Of a stretch of 64,000 bases of DNA, positions 43,848 through 60,853 are shown piece after piece. Both the position numbers and the translations under genes were made by a program. Source of the DNA: Halovivax gelatinilyticus (GTDB taxonomy: Archaea; Halobacteriota; Halobacteria; Halobacteriales; Natrialbaceae); assembly GCF_024300625.1 (NCBI RefSeq), contig NZ_CP101322.1:1253992-1317991 (forward strand). The letters are read 5' to 3'. Each line of letters opens with the position of its first letter. Position 1 is the first letter of the stretch. The notes under the pieces are model-generated. The model was given only the letters and a program-made list of their open reading frames with translations, did no database searches and had not been told where the DNA came from.

Positions 43848-45659
43848 GTGCAACCAGCGCGGATCTTCGACGCCTTTCCCGCTCCGAGCTACCGCGGGAA
43901 CCAGGAACGAGCCCTCCAGGACATCCGAGACGCGTTCGCCGCCGACAACGACGTCGTCTTCGTGCGCGCGCCGACCGGCAGCGGCAAGTCGCTGCTGGCC
44001 AGAGCCATCGCCGGCTGCGCCCGAACGGTCGACGAAGCCGACCCGAGCGAGGCCGCCGGCGCCTACTACACCACGCCGCAGGTCTCCCAGCTCGACGACG
44101 TCGCCGACGACGCCCTCCTCGCGGACCTGAACATCATCCGCGGGAAGTCGAACTACAGCTGCATCCTCCCGGGCGAGGAGCAAACGCCGGTGAACCAGGC
44201 CCCCTGCGTGCGAGAACGGGGCTACGACTGCGACGTCAAACACCGCTGTCCGTACTTCTCGGATCGAGCCATCGCCTCGAACCGGGAAATCGCCGCGATG
44301 ACGCTCGCGTACTTCATGCAAACCGCCGGCAGCGAGGTGTTCAGAAAACGAGACGTCGTCGTGATCGACGAGGCACACGGCCTGGCCGAGTGGGCCGAGA
44401 TGTACGCGACGATCCACCTCGGCCCGCGAACGATCCCCTTCTGGGACGAGCTTCGCGTCCCCGACCTCGAAGCCGCAGACGACGATCCACTCGAACGGGC
44501 CGCCCGCTACGCCGAGAACCTCTCCGGCGTCTGCACCCGACGCAAAGACGAGCTGCTCGCTCAAGAGACGTTCACCCCGGCCGACGTCCGCGAGCGAGAC
44601 CGGCTTCAGGAACTCATCGGCGAACTCGACTGGTTCGTCTCGGACTACCGCGATCCGGGGAGTCCGACGACCTGGCTCGTCGACCAGCAACCCCTCGAAA
44701 CCGACGACGAACAGACCGGCGGCCCGGTGACGATCAAACCGATGAATCCGGAGCGATACCTCGCTCACACCGTCTGGGACCGGGGAAACAAGTTCGCGCT
44801 CCTCTCGGCGACCATCCTCAACAAGGAGGCCTTCTGCCACCAGATCGGCCTCAACCCGGCCGACGTCGCCCTCGTCGACGTCGGTCACACGTTCCCGGTC
44901 GAGAACAGACCGCTGTACGACGTCACGCAGGGGAAGATGACGTTCGAGCACCGCGAAGAGACATTGCCGAAGATCGCGCGAACCATCGTTCGCATCATGG
45001 CCGCCCACCCCGACGAGAAGGGGATCGTCCACGCACACTCCTACGACATTCAGCAGCGACTGGGCTCGCTACTCGCGGATTTCGGCGTCGAGACTCGCAT
45101 CCGAAGTCACGACCGCGACGATCGAGACGCCGCCCTCGAGCGGTGGAAAACGAGTGGCGACCCAGACGTCTTCCTCTCGGTGAAGATGGAAGAAGCGCTC
45201 GACTTAAAGGGCGACCTCGCCCGCTGGCAGGTCATCTGTAAAGCCCCGTTTCTCAACACGAGCGACTCGCGCGTCGCCCACCGCCTGGCCGACGGACAGT
45301 GGGCCTGGTACTACCGGGCGACCCTCCGGACGGTCATGCAGGCCTGCGGCCGAGTGGTGCGAGCGCCGGACGACTACGGTGCGACCTACCTCGCCGATTC
45401 GAGCCTGCTCGATTGCTTCGAGCGCGCCCGATCGGACATGCCCGACTGGTTCGCCACTCAGGTCGACCGGATGTCGGTCCCCGACCTCCCCACGTTCGAC
45501 CCGGCGGCCGCCCGCGGCGAATCCGCCGTGACCACGCCGACCGAACGGTCCGAGAGAGACGCGAGTGAGTCAACCGACCACGCGAACACCACGCGCACTC
45601 GGCCGTCCCGTCGGTCGAAATCGAGCCCGCTCGCGGACGTCTGGGACACCGACGGCTAG
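43848..45659 (+). CDS. XPD/DinG-type Fe-S DNA helicase
   Basis: A 603-residue superfamily 2 helicase with a GTG start. Walker A is APTGSGKS (41-48), the DEAH box lies at 174-177, and four Cys between them (C105, C120, C128, C134) are positioned like the iron-sulfur cluster of XPD, FancJ and DinG. The C-terminal motor domain shows GIVHAHSYDIQQ and VMQACGRVVRAPDDYG (motif VI). It would unwind 5'-tailed DNA in repair. The last 100 residues are disordered and end before the micro-protein on the opposite strand. It stands alone. Confidence 0.92.
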   Translation: MQPARIFDAFPAPSYRGNQERALQDIRDAFAADNDVVFVRAPTGSGKSLLARAIAGCARTVDEADPSEAAGAYYTTPQVSQLDDVADDALLADLNIIRGKSNYSCILPGEEQTPVNQAPCVRERGYDCDVKHRCPYFSDRAIASNREIAAMTLAYFMQTAGSEVFRKRDVVVIDEAHGLAEWAEMYATIHLGPRTIPFWDELRVPDLEAADDDPLERAARYAENLSGVCTRRKDELLAQETFTPADVRERDRLQELIGELDWFVSDYRDPGSPTTWLVDQQPLETDDEQTGGPVTIKPMNPERYLAHTVWDRGNKFALLSATILNKEAFCHQIGLNPADVALVDVGHTFPVENRPLYDVTQGKMTFEHREETLPKIARTIVRIMAAHPDEKGIVHAHSYDIQQRLGSLLADFGVETRIRSHDRDDRDAALERWKTSGDPDVFLSVKMEEALDLKGDLARWQVICKAPFLNTSDSRVAHRLADGQWAWYYRATLRTVMQACGRVVRAPDDYGATYLADSSLLDCFERARSDMPDWFATQVDRMSVPDLPTFDPAAARGESAVTTPTERSERDASESTDHANTTRTRPSRRSKSSPLADVWDTDG

Positions 45660-45942: not shown

Positions 45943-48900
45943 TCAGCCAGCGATGGCGGACACGTCGTGAGCACCGACGATCGTCTGGAGGATCAGGGTG
46001 ACGTCGGCAGGCGTGATGACACCGTCGCCGTTCATGTCGGCACACTCCTCGTAGAAGTCGTCGGTCGGCTCCATACCGACGATGTACTGCTGGGTGAGCG
46101 TCGCGTCGAAGGCCGTGATATCTCCGTCTGCGTTGACGTCGCCGGGTTCACACGGATGAGAACCGACCATTCCCGCAGCTGTCTCGACCGGGAGGTGGCC
46201 CTCGGCGTCGTTGATCGCCGTGTTTTCGTCGTCGAATGCGAGTTCGGTCTCGTCACCAGCCTCGCCGACGTGTTCGAACGAAATTCCCGCGAGCGTCGGC
46301 GCCTCGGTGTCGTGAGCCTGTGCCTGTGCGAGCGAGAGCGTCCCCTCGTCGTTGTCGATCGAGGTGACCGGGTCCTCGAAGTCGACGCCGGAGACCGACT
46401 CGACCTGGACGACGTCCGGATCGAACGCGATTTCGGCCTCGTAGCCGGCGACGGCTGCGCCGACGTCGATGTCGACGGCGGCGACCTCGCCGGGGAACAC
46501 CCGGTCCGAACCGATCGAGATGGTCGCCACCGGCTCGGCGGGATCGTCGTCGGAGAGGTACTGAACGCTGTTGGCGAGGATTGCGTCCGCGGCCTCGGTG
46601 TAGTCACCGTCACCGGCCCACGACGTGTAGCCAAGTCCCGACGCCAGGATCGTCGCGCTCTCATCGTCGATCGCAAACGCGTCGCCGGAGAGGCCATCAC
46701 CGTCGCCGATCGACGCGAGGACGTCGAACGTCGTCCCCTCGAACCAGGTGTGGTCGGCAAAGTCGCCCGTGTGGATCTCGACTTCCTCGCCAGCGTCACC
46801 GACGCCGTCGAAGATCGCGTGATCGGCTTCGAGTTCGTAGTAGACCGGAACCGGTCCGAAGTCGTCCTGGAAGGTCTCGGCCGGCTCACCCGTTACCTCC
46901 GAGTGGACCGGAATGCCGTTGCTGTCATCTCCCCACTGGTCAAGGTAGATCACACCGACCTCGTCACTACTCGTCGCGTCGATGAACGCCTCCGCCTCAT
47001 CGGGATCGAGGTGCTGGACGACGATCGCTTCGTACGTGTCTGGTGCATCGCTCGCGGTGATGACGTCGACGGCGTACTCGAGTGAAAGCGCCTCCGAGAG
47101 CGCCTCGGCGACGTCGTCACCGTGCGCGCCGAGATCGTCGAGGACACCGACGCGAGTGAGTTCCTCGAGGATGATCGTCGGTCCGGTCTCGACCGTCGTT
47201 TCGTCACCGAGGCCGGAAAGAGTGTGCTCCAGCCCGAGTTCGCCAGCGGTGCCGTCTGTCGTTTCCACGGCGATGTCGAGTTCGTCGGTCACCGGCTCGT
47301 CGAACGTCACCGTCTCGCCAAACTCGACGGCAGTTCCATCGACGGAAAGCGAGGCGTTCGCCGCGTCGTACTCGCCGACGAGATCGACCGCGATCGACTC
47401 CAGGTTGGCGACGGCGAGCGTCGTCGTGATCGTCTCACCGCCTTCGATTCGATTCGGTTGATCGGCGACGACTGCGCCATCGAGGACGCGGTCGAGCGCG
47501 AAGTCCGCGGTGACGACGTGATCGTCGTCCTCGATCGTCACCGTCGTCTCGGCGCTTTCGTGACCGAACGCCTCGACGGTCACGTCGTGGGTCCCGGGTA
47601 GCTGAGTGAGTTCGTACGTTCCATCCGCGTCGGTGACCGTGGTGTACTGCTCGTCGACGGTGACGAGCGCACCCTCGACCGGTTCGCCGGCGTCGTCGGT
47701 TACCGTGCCCTCGATTCCGGCGTTCGTATTCGCGAACGCGGTCGCGGTGTAGACATCGATGATCCCGTGGCCGTAGCGGGTGTCGACGCCGTTTATGGCG
47801 TCCTGTGCCTCAGATTCGTCCCAGAAGTCCGGCTTCCAGGCCGTCTCCGTTAGCAACGCCTGGACGGCGTAGGGGTCGAGTTCGTCGCTCGCAGCTCCCA
47901 TGATGGCGGCCGCCGCCCCGCTTTTGTGTGGAGCCGACATCGAGGTTCCGCTCACCTCACAGTACTCGACGTCGCCACACATCGAACCGCCAACCGCGTT
48001 CGCGCTGAAGACGTCGTGGCCCGGAGCGGCGATGTCCGGGGTGATGTACTGTTCCGGCCAGTCGGCTGGTGCCGCGTCACCGAAGACGGCCTCGGTATCG
48101 ATCAACATCCCACCCGAGAAGTCAGTCACCGCCAACTCTTCGCTCGTCGCGCCACTGGCGATCGAATCGTAAACCGCCCCGGGCGAGCCCGCGGTTCCCT
48201 CGCCGCTGTTTCCGATCGAGGCGACGACGAGCGTTCCGGCGGTCATCGAATTTCGAATCGGCTCGACGTACTGGCCCGTGATCGGTCCGCCGAGACTCAT
48301 GCTGAGGACATCCGAATCGGTCTCGACGGCCCACTCGAACGAGTCGAGGATTGCCTGTCCGTCACAGCTGTCGACCTGACAGACGCGTGCATTCGCCAGT
48401 TCCGCGTCCGGTGCAACGCCGATTGCGATGCCGGACTCGTTCGAGCCGGCGATCGTTCCACTGACGTGGGTGCCGTGGCCGTGATTGTCGACCGGCTCGT
48501 CCGCGTCGCCGACAAGATCGACCCAGCCGTCCTCAGCGGCGAGTTCGATATCGGGGTGTGAGTCGTCGACGCCGGTGTCCGCGACCACCACGCGGATGCC
48601 GTCGCCCGTCGCGTCGAACGCGTCCCACGCGTCCGGAGCGGCGATCTGGTCGAGTCCGTAGGTTACGTTCTCCGTCTCGGTCGCTTCGGTCGCCGACACC
48701 GGTTCCGGCGGTTCGAACTGGTGGTTCTCGTGGAGTCGTTCGACGCCGTCGATCCGAGCGAGCGCTTCGAGTTCGATCCGGTCGAGATCGGCCGTGATCA
48801 TAACGGCGTTCGTAATCCACCAGGTCCGCTCGACGGTCACGCCGTCTATCCCCTCGAGTCGGTCGAGGACGGGCGCTTGCGTCTGGCTCGCGTGAGTCTG

Positions 48901-49164
48901 TAAGCTGTCGATCACCGACTCACGATCGCCGTCTATCGCATGCGTCGGGTCCGACAGACGGAGCATAATTTCCGTCTCACCGCTCTCTCGATACAGCGAA
49001 TCGTCGATCTCGACCGCCGGTTGGGCCGTCTGCTGTTCCAGCGTCGGGTCAACCGCCGGTTGGTCCGACAGGTCGGTGCCAGCCGCAACCGCTGGCGTCA
49101 CGATCAAAATCGTGAGGACCAGGGCGAAAAGAACCGCCAGAAGTTGCTTCGTTCGTGTATTCAT
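45943..49164 (-). CDS. Secreted subtilase with ThuA-like, cohesin and dockerin domains (protease A)
   Basis: A 1073-residue secreted protein. Residues 1-28 are a Sec signal; 50-150 resemble an I9-type propeptide. The S8 domain (170-480) has Asp196, His230, Asn319 and Ser408 in intact motifs (ADTGVDD, NHGHGTHVSG, SIGNSGEG, SGTSMSAPH). A carboxypeptidase-regulatory-like beta domain follows (483-556), then a linker, a flavodoxin/ThuA-like domain (about 671-870), a cohesin-like module (880-1000) and a dockerin with two Ca loops (1009-1020, 1043-1054), bracketed by C1005 and C1041. A GGAAGGT precedes the ATG. It likely acts outside the cell, docked to a scaffold. The calls from 670 on rest on motifs. 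Confidence 0.93.
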   Translation of the reverse strand: MNTRTKQLLAVLFALVLTILIVTPAVAAGTDLSDQPAVDPTLEQQTAQPAVEIDDSLYRESGETEIMLRLSDPTHAIDGDRESVIDSLQTHASQTQAPVLDRLEGIDGVTVERTWWITNAVMITADLDRIELEALARIDGVERLHENHQFEPPEPVSATEATETENVTYGLDQIAAPDAWDAFDATGDGIRVVVADTGVDDSHPDIELAAEDGWVDLVGDADEPVDNHGHGTHVSGTIAGSNESGIAIGVAPDAELANARVCQVDSCDGQAILDSFEWAVETDSDVLSMSLGGPITGQYVEPIRNSMTAGTLVVASIGNSGEGTAGSPGAVYDSIASGATSEELAVTDFSGGMLIDTEAVFGDAAPADWPEQYITPDIAAPGHDVFSANAVGGSMCGDVEYCEVSGTSMSAPHKSGAAAAIMGAASDELDPYAVQALLTETAWKPDFWDESEAQDAINGVDTRYGHGIIDVYTATAFANTNAGIEGTVTDDAGEPVEGALVTVDEQYTTVTDADGTYELTQLPGTHDVTVEAFGHESAETTVTIEDDDHVVTADFALDRVLDGAVVADQPNRIEGGETITTTLAVANLESIAVDLVGEYDAANASLSVDGTAVEFGETVTFDEPVTDELDIAVETTDGTAGELGLEHTLSGLGDETTVETGPTIILEELTRVGVLDDLGAHGDDVAEALSEALSLEYAVDVITASDAPDTYEAIVVQHLDPDEAEAFIDATSSDEVGVIYLDQWGDDSNGIPVHSEVTGEPAETFQDDFGPVPVYYELEADHAIFDGVGDAGEEVEIHTGDFADHTWFEGTTFDVLASIGDGDGLSGDAFAIDDESATILASGLGYTSWAGDGDYTEAADAILANSVQYLSDDDPAEPVATISIGSDRVFPGEVAAVDIDVGAAVAGYEAEIAFDPDVVQVESVSGVDFEDPVTSIDNDEGTLSLAQAQAHDTEAPTLAGISFEHVGEAGDETELAFDDENTAINDAEGHLPVETAAGMVGSHPCEPGDVNADGDITAFDATLTQQYIVGMEPTDDFYEECADMNGDGVITPADVTLILQTIVGAHDVSAIAG

Positions 49165-49460: not shown

Positions 49461-49736
49461 TTACCGTAGAACTCTACTACCCGCGAACAGCCCCGCACCG
49501 AGCAATGCGACGATGCCGGCAAATATAACGATGCCACCGGAGCCGTCGCTCAACCCAGACGTTGCGAGGTCTGGGGCGGAGTCATCGTCGTCGGATTGGT
49601 CGGCTGGTTCGTCGTCACTGTAACTCTCGACGCCGGTGGTGCCTGGGTCATCGGACTCGACGATTTCTAGGGTCTCGACGAGCGTTCCATCGACGGAGAG
49701 GTCGACCTGACCGACCTCGTCAAACGCGTAGGAGAC
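49461..49736 (-). other. In-frame continuation of the four-cohesin scaffold beyond a TAG
   Basis: After the TAG at 49739-49737 the same frame stays open for 91 codons to a TAA at 49461. It reads VSYAFDEVGQVDLSVDG, then an acidic Asp/Ser linker, and ends with a transmembrane helix (IVIFAGIVALLGAGLFAG) and RVLR. The first part aligns with residues 379-405 of the second scaffold, and the last with its membrane anchor. So this looks like the genuine C-terminus, cut off by a Ser-to-stop change or rescued by readthrough. Confidence 0.75.
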
Positions 49737-51674
49737 CTAGACCGTCGTCGATTCACCGCTCGAAAGCGTGACGTACTCGGTCGCAATGGATTCGACACCC
49801 GTCTCGACCGCGAGTTTGTGGACACCGTCGCCGTCACCGACGTTCGATAGTTCAACGTGTATTTCGACGGGCTCACCGACCGTTGCAGTGGTCGTAGAGA
49901 GATCGACGCTATCGACGGAAAACACCGCCTCCCCACTGACAGTCGGTGGTGGGAGCGAGATGCCGTCTGAATCGGAGACACGTTCCACGCCGATACTCGT
50001 TCCTTCCAGGTCAACCGGTACGTTGCTCGATTCATCGTTCACGCTCGTCTCCTCTGCGACGAATTTCAGGTCGGATTCACCCGTTGTGAGTACCTCGAAC
50101 TGGATCTCCGCCAGCGTCGGTGCGTCCTCACCAGTCGCTTGGGACTGCGTGAAAAAGACCGTGCCTTCGTCGTTGTCGACGTTGACGACCGGGTCGCCGA
50201 AGTCCACACCGACCACTTCGTCGACTGCGACGATTTCGGGGTCGAACGTTAGCTTCGCTTGGTAGCCCGCCGCGTTCTCGACCGTCGTCTCCAGTTCGAC
50301 GCCGATCGCATCACCGTCCTGCTCACCGGCAATCAGCGAAAGGACGTCATCAGTCGGTTCGTCGTCAGCCTCGACCGAGATCGACGTTCCTTCCAGATCG
50401 ACCGGAATGTCCTCCGGTGGCACCGAGCCATCGTTCACGCTCGTCTCCTCGGCGTCGAATTCCAGGTCGGTTTCACCCGTTTCGAGTACCTCGAACTGGA
50501 TCTCAGCTACCGTCGGTGCGTCGATTCCAGTTGCCTGTGACTGCGTGAAAAAGACCGTGCCTTCGTCGTTGTCGACGTTGACGACTGGGTCCCCGAAGTC
50601 GACACCGACCACTTCGTCGACTGCAACGATTTCGGGGTCGAACGTCACTTCTGCGCCGTAGCCCGCGACGTCATCCGCGTTCGTCTCGATCGTTACACCG
50701 ATCGCATCACCGTCTTGCTCGCCGGCGATCAGTGAGAGCACGTCATCAGTCGGTTCGTCGTCAGCCTCGACCGAGATCGACGTTCCTTCCAGATCGACCG
50801 GAATGTCTTCCGGTGGCACCGAGCCGTTGTTCACGCTCGTTTCGTCCGCAACGAACTCGATATCAGTCTCGCCCGTTTCGAGCACCTCGAACTGGATTTC
50901 AGCCAGCGTCGGCGCATCCTCACCCGTCGCCTGTGACTGGGTGAAAAAGACCGTGCCTTCGTCGTTGTCGACGTTGACGACCGGATCACCGAAGTCGACA
51001 CCGACGACCTCTTCGACCGCGACGATTTCGGGGTCGAACGTTACTTCGGCGCCGTATCCTGCGACGTCGTCGGCGTTCGTTTCCAGCTCGACGCCGATCG
51101 AATCGCCGTCTTGCTCGCCGGCGACCAGCGAGAGCACGTCCTCGGTCGGTTCGTCGTCAAACTCGAGCGTCGTTCCCGAGTGCGCGTCGATCTGGATGTC
51201 TTCCGGAGGAACGGAGCCGTCGTTGATCGACGTCTCATCCGGCACGAACTCGATGTCCGTCTCTGTCGCTTCGAGGACGTTGAATTCGATCTGTGCGAAA
51301 CGGGTCGGCGCGTCTTCGCCGGTCGCCTGCGACTGCGTGAAGTACACCCAGCCTTCCTCATTGTTTACGTTGACGACCGGATCGCCGAAGTCCTCACCGA
51401 CGATGTCGTCCACTTCGAGGACATCGGGATCGAACGTAACGTTCGCGCCGTAGCCGGCAACGTCGTCAGCGTTCGTATAGACGTCCACGATAGCCGATTC
51501 ATCTCCGACTTCGCTGGGTGAGAGCCCAACGTACGTATGCTGTACATCGCTTGCGGTCGACTGTGTCTCGTACGGGGACATCGTGTTATCCCCGCTAGCG
51601 ACCGGGGCGAAAACGGCCCCGACCATCAACACGGCCAGCACGACCGCGATCAGTTGACTTCTGTTCAGTATCAT
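49737..51674 (-). CDS. Four-cohesin surface scaffold protein, ends at in-frame TAG (scaffold A)
   Basis: A 645-residue protein: signal peptide (1-28, MILNRSQLIAVVLAVLMVG), four cohesin-like modules at about 47-172, 181-302, 314-434 and 446-565, then a CARDB-like domain that begins near 585 and is cut by the TAG. Each module carries GYGAEVTFDPEIV, DFGDPVVNVDNDEGTVFFTQSQATG and an acidic tail. Modules 2 and 3 are nearly identical. Cohesins bind dockerins, and both neighbouring subtilases end in dockerins, so this is the likely scaffold. Without the continuation at 49461-49736 it has no membrane anchor. The start at 51674 is chosen because it opens with the signal peptide. Confidence 0.9.
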   Translation of the reverse strand: MILNRSQLIAVVLAVLMVGAVFAPVASGDNTMSPYETQSTASDVQHTYVGLSPSEVGDESAIVDVYTNADDVAGYGANVTFDPDVLEVDDIVGEDFGDPVVNVNNEEGWVYFTQSQATGEDAPTRFAQIEFNVLEATETDIEFVPDETSINDGSVPPEDIQIDAHSGTTLEFDDEPTEDVLSLVAGEQDGDSIGVELETNADDVAGYGAEVTFDPEIVAVEEVVGVDFGDPVVNVDNDEGTVFFTQSQATGEDAPTLAEIQFEVLETGETDIEFVADETSVNNGSVPPEDIPVDLEGTSISVEADDEPTDDVLSLIAGEQDGDAIGVTIETNADDVAGYGAEVTFDPEIVAVDEVVGVDFGDPVVNVDNDEGTVFFTQSQATGIDAPTVAEIQFEVLETGETDLEFDAEETSVNDGSVPPEDIPVDLEGTSISVEADDEPTDDVLSLIAGEQDGDAIGVELETTVENAAGYQAKLTFDPEIVAVDEVVGVDFGDPVVNVDNDEGTVFFTQSQATGEDAPTLAEIQFEVLTTGESDLKFVAEETSVNDESSNVPVDLEGTSIGVERVSDSDGISLPPPTVSGEAVFSVDSVDLSTTTATVGEPVEIHVELSNVGDGDGVHKLAVETGVESIATEYVTLSSGESTTV

Positions 51675-52118: not shown

Positions 52119-53531
52119 TCAGTAACGCCGAACGGCGAACACTGCCATCGTCACGAACGCGATGAGGGCCACACCGACGCCGAACCCGGCGAGTCCGTCA
52201 CTCGCCCCATCGTCGCTGGCGTCAGTTCCGTCGTCCGCAGGGTCTGTCCCGTCAGACTCGTCGTCAGAACCGACTCCGTCATCGGTGTCGGCCTCGTCGT
52301 CCGTATCCGACGTAGACTCGCTCACGTCGACCGTTCCGACGGGCTCGTCGTTGACGAATAACTCGTAGGCGCCGGCTTCGGTGAACGTATAGGTGATCGA
52401 GACCGTCTCGGAATCGTCCCCGGAAAGGAGGACACTTTCGGTGACGAGTGAATTCCCATCGGCCTGTAACGTGAGTTCGTAATTGCCGGCCTGTTCGCCG
52501 ACGTTCGTCACGTCGACGGTAACCTCGATCGAGTCACCAACGACGACGGCAGACGACGACAGGTCGACGACCTCGAACTCGAATTCGGCCGGATCAGGCT
52601 CCGGCGGCGGTGGTGGAAGGCCGCCGCCTCCGTCGTCCGCTTCTTCCTCCACGTCGAGAGTCGTTCCGACGAACTCGACCAGCACGTTGCTCGATTCGTC
52701 GTTCACACCCGTCTCGTCGGCGTCGAAGGCCAGGTCGGTTTCACCGGAGTCGTGAGTCGAAAACTGGATCTCGGCGAAGGTTGGTCGGTCTTCACCAGTC
52801 GCCTGCGACTGCGTGAAAAACACCGTTCCCTCGTCGTTGTCGACGTTGACGACCGGGTCGTCGAAGTCGATGCCGACGACGTCCTCTACGGTAACGACGT
52901 CCGGATCGTAGGTGACGAACGCCTGATAGCCGGCTGCATTCTCGACGGTCGTTTCGAGCGTGACCCCAATCTCGGTTCCGTCCTGTTCGCCGGCAACGAG
53001 CGAAAGCGTGTCGTCGTTCGGTTGCTCGTCTTCGAGTTCGACGGTAATCTCGGTTCCGTCGAGATCGACGTCGATGTCTTCGGGTGGAACCGCTCCATCG
53101 TTGAGAGTCGTGTCGTCCTCGAGGAACGACAGTTCCGAGTCACCGCTCGCCAGAACGGTGAACTCGAACTCGACCAGGGTCGGATTAGCGTCACCGACGG
53201 CCTGAGACTGCGTAACGAAGACCCAGCCGTTCCGGTTGTCGATATTCGTAACTGGATCTCCGAAGTCGACCCCGGAAACGTTCTCCTCGTCGATCGCGAG
53301 GATATCCGGGTCGAACGTTACGTTCGCGCCGTAGCCAGCGACGTCGTCCGCATCAGCTTCGAGCGTGACGGCGATGGTCTCACCCTCCTGCTCGTCGGCG
53401 ACGAGTGAGAGGAGCCCCTCCTCGTCGGACGAGTCGCTCACCGAATCGGCGCTCGCCGCTGTCGCACCACCCAGCGGAACAAGTAGTATTCCGGCCAATA
53501 CAACGGTCAGAACGACGGCAATGAGTCGCAT
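52119..53531 (-). CDS. Two-cohesin membrane-anchored scaffold protein (scaffold B)
   Basis: A 470-residue protein: signal peptide (1-27), cohesin-like modules at about 40-165 and 175-295, a Pro-rich hinge (GGGGLPPPPPEPDP), a CARDB-like beta domain (315-403), an acidic Asp/Ser/Thr linker, and a C-terminal helix (LAGFGVGVALIAFVTMAVFAV) ending RRY. The layout is that of a surface scaffold held in the membrane and projecting through the S-layer. Its CARDB region aligns with scaffold A and shows what the amber codon there replaces (Ser378, TCG). The start at 53531 follows a GGGGGAAA ribosome-binding-like run. Confidence 0.92.
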   Translation of the reverse strand: MRLIAVVLTVVLAGILLVPLGGATAASADSVSDSSDEEGLLSLVADEQEGETIAVTLEADADDVAGYGANVTFDPDILAIDEENVSGVDFGDPVTNIDNRNGWVFVTQSQAVGDANPTLVEFEFTVLASGDSELSFLEDDTTLNDGAVPPEDIDVDLDGTEITVELEDEQPNDDTLSLVAGEQDGTEIGVTLETTVENAAGYQAFVTYDPDVVTVEDVVGIDFDDPVVNVDNDEGTVFFTQSQATGEDRPTFAEIQFSTHDSGETDLAFDADETGVNDESSNVLVEFVGTTLDVEEEADDGGGGLPPPPPEPDPAEFEFEVVDLSSSAVVVGDSIEVTVDVTNVGEQAGNYELTLQADGNSLVTESVLLSGDDSETVSITYTFTEAGAYELFVNDEPVGTVDVSESTSDTDDEADTDDGVGSDDESDGTDPADDGTDASDDGASDGLAGFGVGVALIAFVTMAVFAVRRY

Positions 53532-53580
53532 TGATTTCCCCCGGGGAAGTAGTTGTGACACTGTTAATTCACACATCATT

Positions 53581-53823: not shown

Positions 53824-56800
53824 TCAGGCCCAGATACCGACGATGATCTGGTGGATCGCCGTCACGTCCGCTGGTGTGATCTCGCCATCTCCCGTCAGGT
53901 CACCGCACGCTGGGTTGACGAAGCCTTCGGGGTCGAGGCCGGCAATGTACTGCTGGGTCAACGTTGCGTCGAGTGAGTTCACTTCGCCGTCGCCGTTGAC
54001 GTCACCCGGAAGCGCACAGTCCGTTCCGACTTGCAGCGATCCCGCGAGGTACTCCGCCGGCTCGACGACGCTCTCTTCGTCGTTAAGCTGCGTGTTCTCC
54101 TCGACGAAGAAAAGATCGGTCGAGTCGCCGTCCTCGCCGACAGCCTCGAACGAGAGTTCAGCCAGCGTCGGTGCGTCGACGCCGCTCGCCTGACTCATCG
54201 CCAGTCCGAGTACGCCGTCGTCATCGTCGTTGACGACCGGGTCGTTCAGGTCGACGCCCTCTGCGCCGACGAACTCGAAGACGTCCGCGTCGTAGTGGAT
54301 TTCGGCCTGGTAGCCAGCGATGTTCGCCAGGTCCGTATCGAGTTCGACCGTCGCAACATCGCCTTCGGCTGCACTCGCCTCACCGAGACGGACGAAGCCT
54401 TCCGCCGGCTCGTCCTCAGCGTCGACCGTCACCGCTGCCGTATCGCTGTCGTCTTCGCTGCTGACCGTGAGGTCGCCGCTACCGGCGTCACCGGCCTGCG
54501 TGTTCCACGTGAGAGAAATCTCGGTCGAATCGCCGAGATCGAGCGAGACCGCTTCGGAGTCGACGACCGCGCCGTCGAAGTCCGCGAGTTCGATCGTCTG
54601 CTCGACGACGTCAGCCGCGAGCGGGTCGTCGGGTTCCTCGACGTGTTCGACTTCGACGTCGACGACGAGGTCCTCACCTTCGGTCACCGGGGAGTTGGTC
54701 TCGAGGATCGAAACCTCGAACTCACCGTCTTCCGGCGGCTCGGGTTCGCCATCAACGAGGTACTCGATCGAGTTTACCAGCACCGCGACCGACTCGTCGG
54801 TCACGTCGCTGGCGCTGACGTACTCGCTCAGACCTGACGAGGCCGCGAGTACCGTCGCACTCGAATCGTCGACCGCCAGTCCGCTACCGACCGACGTGCC
54901 GTCGACCGTCACGCCCGCGATCACGTCGAACGACGTGCCCGTCATCCACGCGTGATCGGCGTACTGATCCGTGTGGATCGGGATCTCGTCGCCGAGACCG
55001 TCGACGATCTCGTGTGACTGCTCGACGCTGTAGTACGGACCGTCCGCACCCTGCGAGAAGTCCTCGTCCACGCCGTCGACGTCGTTGCTGACGCTGGCGA
55101 ACTGCGTCACGCCGTTTGCGTCACCCGCCGACTCTTCGTACATGTCCAGGTAGATGACGCCCACGTCGTCGCCGCTCGTCGCGTCCACGAAGTCACCGAC
55201 GTTCGAACTGTCGATGGTCTGGACGACGAAGACGTCGTGCTCGGCGTCGAGTGCTTCGGATGACGAAAGCGTCTCGACGAAGACATCCTCACCGGTCGCA
55301 TCGTCGAGCAGACTCGCGACGTTGCCCGCGTAAGAGCCGTCGCCGATCACGCCGACTGCGGCGAACTCTTCGAGTTCGGCGAGCGAGAAGTCCGCCGTCA
55401 CCGTCTCGCCCTCGCCGACGCTCACGGTCTGACTGTCCGACTCGTAGCCGAACGCCTCGGCGGTCACGTCGTACGTGTCAGCGAGGACGCTCAGTTCGTA
55501 GTTACCGTTCGCGTCCGTCTCGTCGCTCGAACTGCCCGCCGAGACGGTCGCGCCTTCGATCGCCGCACCAGTATCGTCGGTCACCGTTCCCTGGATGATT
55601 CCGGGGTCGGCGCCGACCGCTGCCACGGCCGCGTGCAGGTCGACGATACCGGTCCCGTAGCGCGAATCGCGCTCGGTGTCGGGGTTGTAGTGCATCGCGC
55701 TGTTCGGGTCCCAGAAGTCCGGCTTCCAGGCCGTATCCATCATAATATCCTGGACGTCCCAGGGGTCTAGCGCATCGTTCGTCGAGAGGATCGCCGTTGC
55801 CACGCCTGCTTTGTGTGGCGAGGACATCGACGTGCCCGACATCTGCTGGTAGCCGCCACCAGGCTGGGCACTCACAACGGCCGCTCCGGGAGCCGCGACG
55901 TCAGGCGTGATGAACGAGCCGGCCGGCCAGTGGCTCATCCAGTTACCGCCGAAGTCGCCTTCCTGTAGGAGCGTACCGCCGGAGAAGCTGGTCACCTGCA
56001 GGTTTTCGTTGGTCGCACCGCTTGCGATCGAGTCGTACGGCGCACCGGGCGAACCTGACGTTCCCTCACCGTCGTTGCCGATGGAGGAAACGACGAGCGT
56101 ACCGGCGTCCATCGAATTGTAGACGACGTCGACGTACGAGCCGGTGATAGGTCCGCCAAGACTCAGGTTAATTACGTCGGAGTCGGTGTCGACGGCGAAC
56201 TGGAACGACTCCATAATCGCGGCGCCCTGACATCCGGATCCAGTACACACTCGAACGTTCGCGAGTTCGGCGTCAGGAGCGACACCGATCGCCGTTCCGG
56301 AATCGGCACCGCCGGCAATCGTGCCGCTCACGTGCGTTCCGTGTCCGTGGTTGTCGACTGGCGTCGACGAACCGCCGACCGGATCGGACCAGCCGTCTTC
56401 GGCGGCGAGTTCGATGTCCGGGTGATCGGCGTCGACGCCGGTATCGGCAACGACGACGCGGACGTTCTCCCCGGTCGCACCGAAGTCGCCCCAGGCTTCT
56501 GGGACGTTGATCTGCTCGAGCCCGTACGTGTAGCTCTGCTGTGGATCGACGTCGTTTTCGACGTCGACCGGCTCGGGCGCGTCGACGGTGAGGTGTGGCT
56601 CGATCGATTCGATGCCGTCGATCTCCGCGAGTTCCTCTACGCTCACTCGGTCGAGGTCCGCCGTCACGTGAATCGAGTTTCGGATCCAGAACGTGTCCTC
56701 GACGTCGACCGCGTCGTATCGGTCGAGTTCGCTTATGACCGGCTCCTGAGCCAGATCAGCTTGCGTCTTGAGCGCATCGATCACTGCATCCGAATCCCCC

Positions 56801-57027
56801 TGTCGATCGGTCTCTGCGATGTCAGGGAGGAACAAGAACAGTTCCGTTTCGCCGGTTTCGTCGTAGAGCGATTCGTCGATATCCGTCGTCACTGCGTCGC
56901 CGGATGCTGACTGTACCGATGTCGTGGTGAGATCGTCACCCGACGCCATCCCGATCGGGGCGAATACCGCACCCGTCATCAGAATAGCCAGCGTTACCGC
57001 GAGCAGTTGTTTATGTGCTGACTTCAT
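53824..57027 (-). CDS. Secreted subtilase with ThuA-like, CARDB-like, cohesin and dockerin domains (protease B)
   Basis: A 1067-residue paralogue of protease A. Signal peptide 1-29; propeptide-like 50-150; S8 domain with Asp195, His229, Asn318 and Ser400 (ADTGVDADHPD, NHGHGTHVSG, SIGNDGEG, SGTSMSSPH); carboxypeptidase-regulatory-like domain 477-549; ThuA-like domain 557-760; an extra CARDB-like domain (770-870) absent from protease A; cohesin-like module 877-1000; dockerin loops 1009-1020 and 1043-1054 with C1004 and C1041 outside them. A TATA box CTTATATTAGGG lies at 57072-57083. It is probably secreted by Sec and fixed at the cell surface by dockerin binding. All catalytic residues are present, so it should be active. 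Confidence 0.93.
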   Translation of the reverse strand: MKSAHKQLLAVTLAILMTGAVFAPIGMASGDDLTTTSVQSASGDAVTTDIDESLYDETGETELFLFLPDIAETDRQGDSDAVIDALKTQADLAQEPVISELDRYDAVDVEDTFWIRNSIHVTADLDRVSVEELAEIDGIESIEPHLTVDAPEPVDVENDVDPQQSYTYGLEQINVPEAWGDFGATGENVRVVVADTGVDADHPDIELAAEDGWSDPVGGSSTPVDNHGHGTHVSGTIAGGADSGTAIGVAPDAELANVRVCTGSGCQGAAIMESFQFAVDTDSDVINLSLGGPITGSYVDVVYNSMDAGTLVVSSIGNDGEGTSGSPGAPYDSIASGATNENLQVTSFSGGTLLQEGDFGGNWMSHWPAGSFITPDVAAPGAAVVSAQPGGGYQQMSGTSMSSPHKAGVATAILSTNDALDPWDVQDIMMDTAWKPDFWDPNSAMHYNPDTERDSRYGTGIVDLHAAVAAVGADPGIIQGTVTDDTGAAIEGATVSAGSSSDETDANGNYELSVLADTYDVTAEAFGYESDSQTVSVGEGETVTADFSLAELEEFAAVGVIGDGSYAGNVASLLDDATGEDVFVETLSSSEALDAEHDVFVVQTIDSSNVGDFVDATSGDDVGVIYLDMYEESAGDANGVTQFASVSNDVDGVDEDFSQGADGPYYSVEQSHEIVDGLGDEIPIHTDQYADHAWMTGTSFDVIAGVTVDGTSVGSGLAVDDSSATVLAASSGLSEYVSASDVTDESVAVLVNSIEYLVDGEPEPPEDGEFEVSILETNSPVTEGEDLVVDVEVEHVEEPDDPLAADVVEQTIELADFDGAVVDSEAVSLDLGDSTEISLTWNTQAGDAGSGDLTVSSEDDSDTAAVTVDAEDEPAEGFVRLGEASAAEGDVATVELDTDLANIAGYQAEIHYDADVFEFVGAEGVDLNDPVVNDDDDGVLGLAMSQASGVDAPTLAELSFEAVGEDGDSTDLFFVEENTQLNDEESVVEPAEYLAGSLQVGTDCALPGDVNGDGEVNSLDATLTQQYIAGLDPEGFVNPACGDLTGDGEITPADVTAIHQIIVGIWA

Positions 57028-59965: not shown

Positions 59966-60853
59966 ATGGAATGGACGCCGGACTGGGGACTGCGAGCCCG
60001 GATGGTGCTGACGATGTTCTTACTGTTCGTCCTATACATCGTCTTCGCCGGGTTGATCACCGCCTACACCGGTGGCGGCCTACTCATCTTCGCGATGCTC
60101 TTCGGCGGGTTCTCGGTCGTCCAGTACTACTTCAGCGACACGCTCACCCTGAAGAGCATGGGGGCGAAGACGGTCTCGGCCGACGAGTATCCGCAGCTAC
60201 ACCGGTCGATCGAACGACTCTCCCAGCAGGCCGACCTCCCGAAGCCGACCGTCGCCGTCGTCGACGAGGACGTCCCGAACGCCTTCGCGACCGGGCGCAA
60301 CCAGTCGAACGCCGCCGTCGCCGTGACGACCGGCCTGCTCCGCACGCTCGACCGTGACGAGTTAGACGGCGTCCTGGCGCACGAACTCGCCCACGTGAAA
60401 AATCGCGACATGATGGTGATGACGTTCGCCTCGCTGCTGGCGACGATCGCCTTTATGTTCGTTCGCTGGGGCGCCTTTTTCGGCGGCGGACGCGGTCGCG
60501 GCGGCGGTCGTGGTGGCGGCGGTATCATGGTCGCCATCCTCATCTCGCTCGTCGTCTGGATCATCAGCTACATCCTCATGCGTGCGCTCTCGCGCTACCG
60601 CGAATACTCGGCCGACCGCGGCGCGGCCGCGATCACCGGCAATCCCGGGGCGCTGGCCTCCGCGCTCATCTCGATCTCCGACGGCGTCGACAAGATACCC
60701 GACCGCGACCTGCGAGACGAAGCCGAGATGAACGCCTTCTTCATCATCCCGTTGAAGTCGGGCGTCGTCGGCAAACTGTTCGCGACCCACCCGCCGACGG
60801 AGAAACGCATCGAACAGCTCCGCCAGCTCGAACGCGAGATGGAGACGGTGTAG
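59966..60853 (+). CDS. htpX: HtpX-like membrane zinc metalloprotease
   Basis: A 295-residue M48 protease. Two N-terminal helices (about 12-58), the zinc motif HELAH (139-143) with VKNRD, and a later Glu region (YREYSADRGAAAITGNP) supplying the third ligand are intact; two further helices flank a Gly/Arg-rich loop (GGGRGRGGGRGGGG). It would degrade damaged membrane proteins as part of envelope stress control. The next gene is pspAB, a common partner. The start at 59966 is the family start. Confidence 0.95.
   Translation: MEWTPDWGLRARMVLTMFLLFVLYIVFAGLITAYTGGGLLIFAMLFGGFSVVQYYFSDTLTLKSMGAKTVSADEYPQLHRSIERLSQQADLPKPTVAVVDEDVPNAFATGRNQSNAAVAVTTGLLRTLDRDELDGVLAHELAHVKNRDMMVMTFASLLATIAFMFVRWGAFFGGGRGRGGGRGGGGIMVAILISLVVWIISYILMRALSRYREYSADRGAAAITGNPGALASALISISDGVDKIPDRDLRDEAEMNAFFIIPLKSGVVGKLFATHPPTEKRIEQLRQLEREMETV

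Follow-up and report, generated by a model that had tools for sequence, protein, structure and literature searches.

In cellulosomal scaffoldins, cohesins are repeated along a secreted protein found beside dockerin-bearing enzymes, and anchored and unanchored forms may coexist. Protein extensions that are regulated at a stop codon occur in viruses and eukaryotes. For archaea, the recoding events that have been demonstrated are, in the available text of one account, Sec decoding, Pyl decoding, and a single -1 frameshift (PMC8211752). ArtA substrates, as outlined in the accessible portion of another report, have a PGF motif, a hydrophobic domain, and a basic end (PMC7157517), and dockerin-bearing glycosidases are noted in natronoarchaea in the available part of a third (PMC10963439). 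A search of the open-licence literature on archaeal cohesin, dockerin, and cellulosome found no description of the protease cluster considered here.

In Halovivax gelatinilyticus, the window (the whole 64,000-nucleotide stretch of DNA that was analysed) carries on its minus strand, between 45943 and 57027, two dockerin-bearing subtilases with cohesin modules, clustered with two cohesin scaffolds. The S8 subtilase at 45943..49164 has a carboxypeptidase-regulatory domain, a module recognised as cohesin-like from its sequence, and a dockerin, and the one at 53824..57027 has a carboxypeptidase-regulatory domain, a cohesin, and a dockerin; Dockerin_1 was identified in both of these scaffold neighbours. 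Scaffold B (52119..53579, minus strand) is an intact paralogue of the gene under study, scaffold A, with two cohesins, a CARDB domain, and a PGF-CTERM-like tail. Larger clusters of the same kind are present in two congeneric genomes, G002 and G003. In G003, a 2087-aa scaffold (L076:11162-17425) has 14 cohesin motifs and a PGF-CTERM end, and a 195-aa cohesin-dockerin fragment lying just 3′ of a full subtilase gene (L077:15586-16173) looks like the remnant of a tandem duplication. The cluster could encode an extracellular protease complex of haloarchaea that is assembled by pairing cohesins with dockerins, and this setting is more unusual than the stop codon discussed below.

Scaffold A occupies a minus-strand frame (51674-49461) of 737 codons plus a final stop, in which the sole internal stop is a TAG at codon 646 (49737..49739) that is followed by 91 open codons with no second stop or frameshift. 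Sequence and translation thus agree with the first-pass annotation, which had described this interruption at 49739-49737 and the open frame beyond it. In support of the start at 51674, the best homologues from the two congeneric genomes have the identical N-terminus MILNRSQLIAV. As terminated (49740..51674), the product has 645 aa, in which a hydrophobic signal segment at the N-terminus is followed by four cohesin modules and then by the beginning of a CARDB domain. The four modules, each with an AGY motif (residues 73, 205, 337, and 469), share 58-90% pairwise identity. Pfam cohesin was detected in all six compared scaffolds at E ≤ 0.1, with a score for scaffold A (21.3 bits) that lies under the Pfam cut-off of 24.1. 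If the TAG terminates translation, the remaining 28 CARDB codons (49653..49736) are untranslated, as is the stretch at 49461..49652, which encodes an acidic linker and a hydrophobic membrane segment that ends in VLR, without a PGF motif, before the final stop. Signal segment aside, nothing in the truncated product is as hydrophobic as a membrane segment, its 19-residue Kyte-Doolittle means peaking at 1.20 vs 2.32 in the tail past the TAG. Reinitiation downstream was discarded as a source of a separate tail product: no in-frame ATG or GTG was seen past the TAG, and a single TTG near the membrane segment would yield no signal peptide. The tetranucleotide CTAG is rare in the window, with 26 copies seen vs approximately 60 expected from trinucleotides; two copies, at 49667 and 49737, lie 70 bases apart, and one of them holds the scaffold A TAG.

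The stop falls within a domain. In a construct containing the fourth cohesin, the CARDB domain, and the tail, Pfam CARDB matches residues 149-221 and the stop lies at 206, so similarity crosses it. A structure of this construct was predicted with the TAG read as Glu and with six sequences, giving a mean pLDDT of 74.7 and a pTM of 0.42, at which the relative placing of domains is unreliable. The model shows one cohesin-like and one Ig-like predicted domain, and when it was used to search the PDB, cohesins led the matches, with the Archaeoglobus fulgidus cohesin among the first 50. The stop is placed inside a predicted strand (202-210 of the construct), with two further predicted strands (215-221 and 224-232) beyond it, so that a product ending there would have only an incomplete CARDB domain.

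The length of the open frame past the stop was discarded as evidence, given that in-frame extensions of at least 91 codons follow 17 of 40 ORFs, scaffold A included, in rough gene calls from this GC-rich window. Homology and composition are more informative. The 91-aa tail aligned to four intact relatives with scores of 109, 118, 85, and 92, none of which was reached in 1000 shuffles; with a fifth relative the score was 41, and 29 of 1000 shuffles scored as high. The five wrong frames of the same tail scored only 13-43. Its codon-usage score, 0.43, lies between the 5% point (0.23) and the median (0.55) of true genes in the window, compared to about -0.5 for the 3′ intergenic stretch, and the drop in GC content from 0.605 to 0.439 is located at the end of the tail, not at the TAG. 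Homology, gene-like codon usage, and GC content together indicate that translation of the tail either continues or ended only recently in evolutionary terms. The presence of an in-frame TAG followed by a homologous open tail is confirmed, as is the earlier statement that this tail matches the C-terminal end of scaffold B, with its CARDB part and membrane segment; the match extends to the four congeneric scaffolds.

The comparison set consisted of scaffold B and four scaffolds from G002 and G003, each of these genomes supplying its best match and one smaller scaffold. The best matches over residues 1-564 of scaffold A were the 2087-aa G003 scaffold and a 1258-aa G002 scaffold. All five genes have a sense codon at the position aligned to the TAG. 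Opposite the stop stand Glu, Glu, Ser, Thr, and Gln, with Glu in both of the best two homologues, and in four of the five codons a single base change would give TAG. The Ser previously reported opposite the stop in scaffold B is correct, being residue 394 when counted from the first ATG and 378 from the second, but it comes from a paralogue. Scaffolds of this kind were found in three of the five genus genomes examined (the source genome, G002, and G003) and in neither G001 nor G004. A family-level search recovered such a scaffold in 3 of 125 genomes at E ≤ 1e-40, and an order-level search gave matches in 5 of 392 genomes at E ≤ 1e-25, none closer than G002 and G003. No closer relative appeared in a first genome-contig scan or in viral contigs, and the seven loci returned by a second genome-contig scan were all distant. 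Among the genomes examined, the stop is confined to the source genome, as judged from the aligned sequences.

Relaxed selection on the tail is not established. Speaking against it, the CARDB part of the tail has 15 identities in 28 positions with the best homologue, vs 24 in 63 for the part upstream of the stop. When branch lengths were compared up- and downstream of the stop on a fixed tree, with significance assessed by permutation, the scaffold A branch lengthened from 0.47 to 1.22 (p = 0.073). The branch of intact scaffold B lengthened nearly alike, from 0.29 to 0.76 (p = 0.090), and because this gene is uninterrupted, scaffold A does not stand out in the test; the other four sequences gave p values of 0.66-0.89 for downstream lengthening. 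For the scaffold A tail, the branch lengths thus give no more than a hint of relaxed selection.

The membrane tail itself differs from those of most relatives. Where PGF is expected, scaffold A has GGI, and its tail gave no PGF-CTERM match at E ≤ 10, a threshold at which 29 matches were found in the source genome. The PGF-CTERM cut-off was passed by scaffold B and by three of the four relatives' tails; the tail of the smaller G002 scaffold scored 12.4 bits, below the cut-off, yet contains IPGF. The PGF motif is carried by four of the five comparison tails, and ArtA was found in all five genus genomes. Since the scaffold A tail lacks PGF, a form made by readthrough would have, at best, a plain membrane tail, and would not qualify as a standard substrate of archaeosortase. 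The missing motif suits a tail released from selection but is no proof of it. Cohesin proteins of Haloarchaeobius likewise have plain membrane tails without PGF, and for this reason its absence need not mean decay. In two Haloarchaeobius loci (L129:3574-7470 and L135:3202-7443), such a gene, with a single cohesin and a plain membrane tail without PGF, comes directly after a long open frame that has cohesin and dockerin motifs.

How the TAG is best explained depends on whether the base is real and on whether the codon terminates. The strain is represented by a single genome and the base is known from the assembly alone, so that a sequencing or assembly error might hide a full-length anchored scaffold. 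The homologues of scaffold A are intact, completeness is 95.5% for the source genome vs 99% for four congeners, and an ABC transporter gene is split by a frameshift (L138:96-1000; G000:C1:2824300-2825300), which may be a pseudogene or an indel error. However, the assembly is one contig of 3.70 Mb, and internal stops were found in none of 122 above-cut-off domain matches elsewhere (73 ABC_tran, 16 MFS_1, and 33 HATPase_c), a count that leaves out one below-cut-off MFS match with an internal TAA and one below-cut-off ABC match. Apparently split MFS genes were considered as a sign of poor assembly and discarded once their reading frames were inspected. We regard an error at this base as unlikely, and as less likely than a real change. 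Genome-wide decoding of TAG as an amino acid, via pyrrolysine or a suppressor tRNA, is extremely improbable. The open tail would fit such decoding, and the tRNA inventory is incomplete, with two matches of 103-106 nt (L054 and L060), probably intron-bearing, left untyped by ARAGORN and no Asn tRNA typed. Conversely, the source genome had no PylRS match to TIGR02367 (one of 14 control genomes scored over the cut-off), no CUA tRNA was present among the 39 typed of its 41 tRNA matches, and none of 38 candidates from a pattern search was CUA. With neither PylRS nor a CUA tRNA found, pyrrolysine or suppressor decoding was rejected. TAG is also the stop codon of 8 of the 40 genes roughly called in the window, scaffold A and the called genes at 43848-45659 and 59966-60853 among them.

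The other proposal, that leaky or programmed readthrough yields a minority anchored form beside the released one, draws on the same features of the tail, which is in frame and coding-like, with an intact hydrophobic segment and with CARDB similarity that carries on past the stop; maintained readthrough would likewise yield a tail free of second stops and frameshifts and with normal codon usage. It is at odds with the sense codons in all five homologues, with the failure to find a suppressor tRNA or PylRS in the source genome, with the missing PGF, and with the recoding types given as demonstrated in archaea in the available text of PMC8211752, outside of which it would fall. RNA around the stop was not stabler than shuffled sequences in four segments of 60-100 nt (z = -0.29, -0.05, 0.97, and 2.00), a weak criterion for readthrough, as archaeal stimulatory signals have no established form. 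Readthrough giving released and anchored forms from one gene, as suggested in the first-pass annotation, showed none of the signatures tested, the protein that it yields would have no PGF signal for anchoring, and programmed readthrough of this TAG is not supported. We consider a minority anchored form produced in this way improbable, and it is highly improbable that the haloarchaeon uses leaky UAG termination as a canonical-amino-acid switch, independent of pyrrolysine, between released and membrane-held protease scaffold. If readthrough were nonetheless shown, archaea would gain a rare example of dual targeting that involves neither pyrrolysine nor selenocysteine.

Overall, the TAG is likely to be a genuine nonsense change, specific to this lineage and probably young, whose four-cohesin product would be either released or unstable, with scaffold B still intact. 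Among the three origins first put forward, the nonsense change is the one that is well supported, by the lack of a stop in the five homologues, the coding-like tail, and the use of TAG to end called genes; assembly error is unlikely given the 122 stop-free matches, though an ABC gene carries a frameshift. That the tail has kept an open frame and gene-like codon usage suggests that the change is young. The ancestral gene would have encoded a Sec-secreted, membrane-anchored four-cohesin scaffold before a nonsense change struck it in this lineage. Ribosomes would now terminate at codon 646, and the product would retain the signal segment and four cohesins. Its CARDB domain would be short of the last two strands and of part of another, and the acidic linker and the only C-terminal membrane segment would be gone as well. 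If stable, the truncated protein may be released together with any dockerin-bearing subtilases bound to it, and scaffold B would stay as the anchored scaffold. If the stop is real, this strain has a cohesin scaffold that lost its anchor by natural mutation, and it could help to show whether the subtilase complexes of haloarchaea act on the cell surface or free in the medium. As it stands, the case is one of an ordinary nonsense change within an unusual and little-described gene cluster.

Comparison with known systems places the locus as follows. The redefinition of UAG as pyrrolysine in methanogens, as presented in the available text of PMC8211752, also involves an in-frame UAG within an archaeal gene. 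Here, by contrast, no PylRS or CUA tRNA was found, and scaffold A is no methylamine methyltransferase. Archaeosortase-dependent (PGF-CTERM) surface proteins are resembled by scaffold B and three of the four congeneric homologues, which bear a scoring PGF-CTERM tail, and not by scaffold A, whose tail has neither the motif nor a match to the model. Like cellulosomal scaffoldins, scaffolds A and B present repeated cohesins on secreted proteins encoded next to dockerin-bearing enzymes; unlike them, they are haloarchaeal, their putative partners are subtilases rather than cellulases, and their cohesin-dockerin pairing is putative. With nonsense-truncated surface-protein genes of prokaryotes, scaffold A shares one stop in a homologous frame, an intact, coding-like downstream part, and intact homologues in relatives, but its stop lies near the C-terminus, and a secreted, possibly working four-cohesin product remains.
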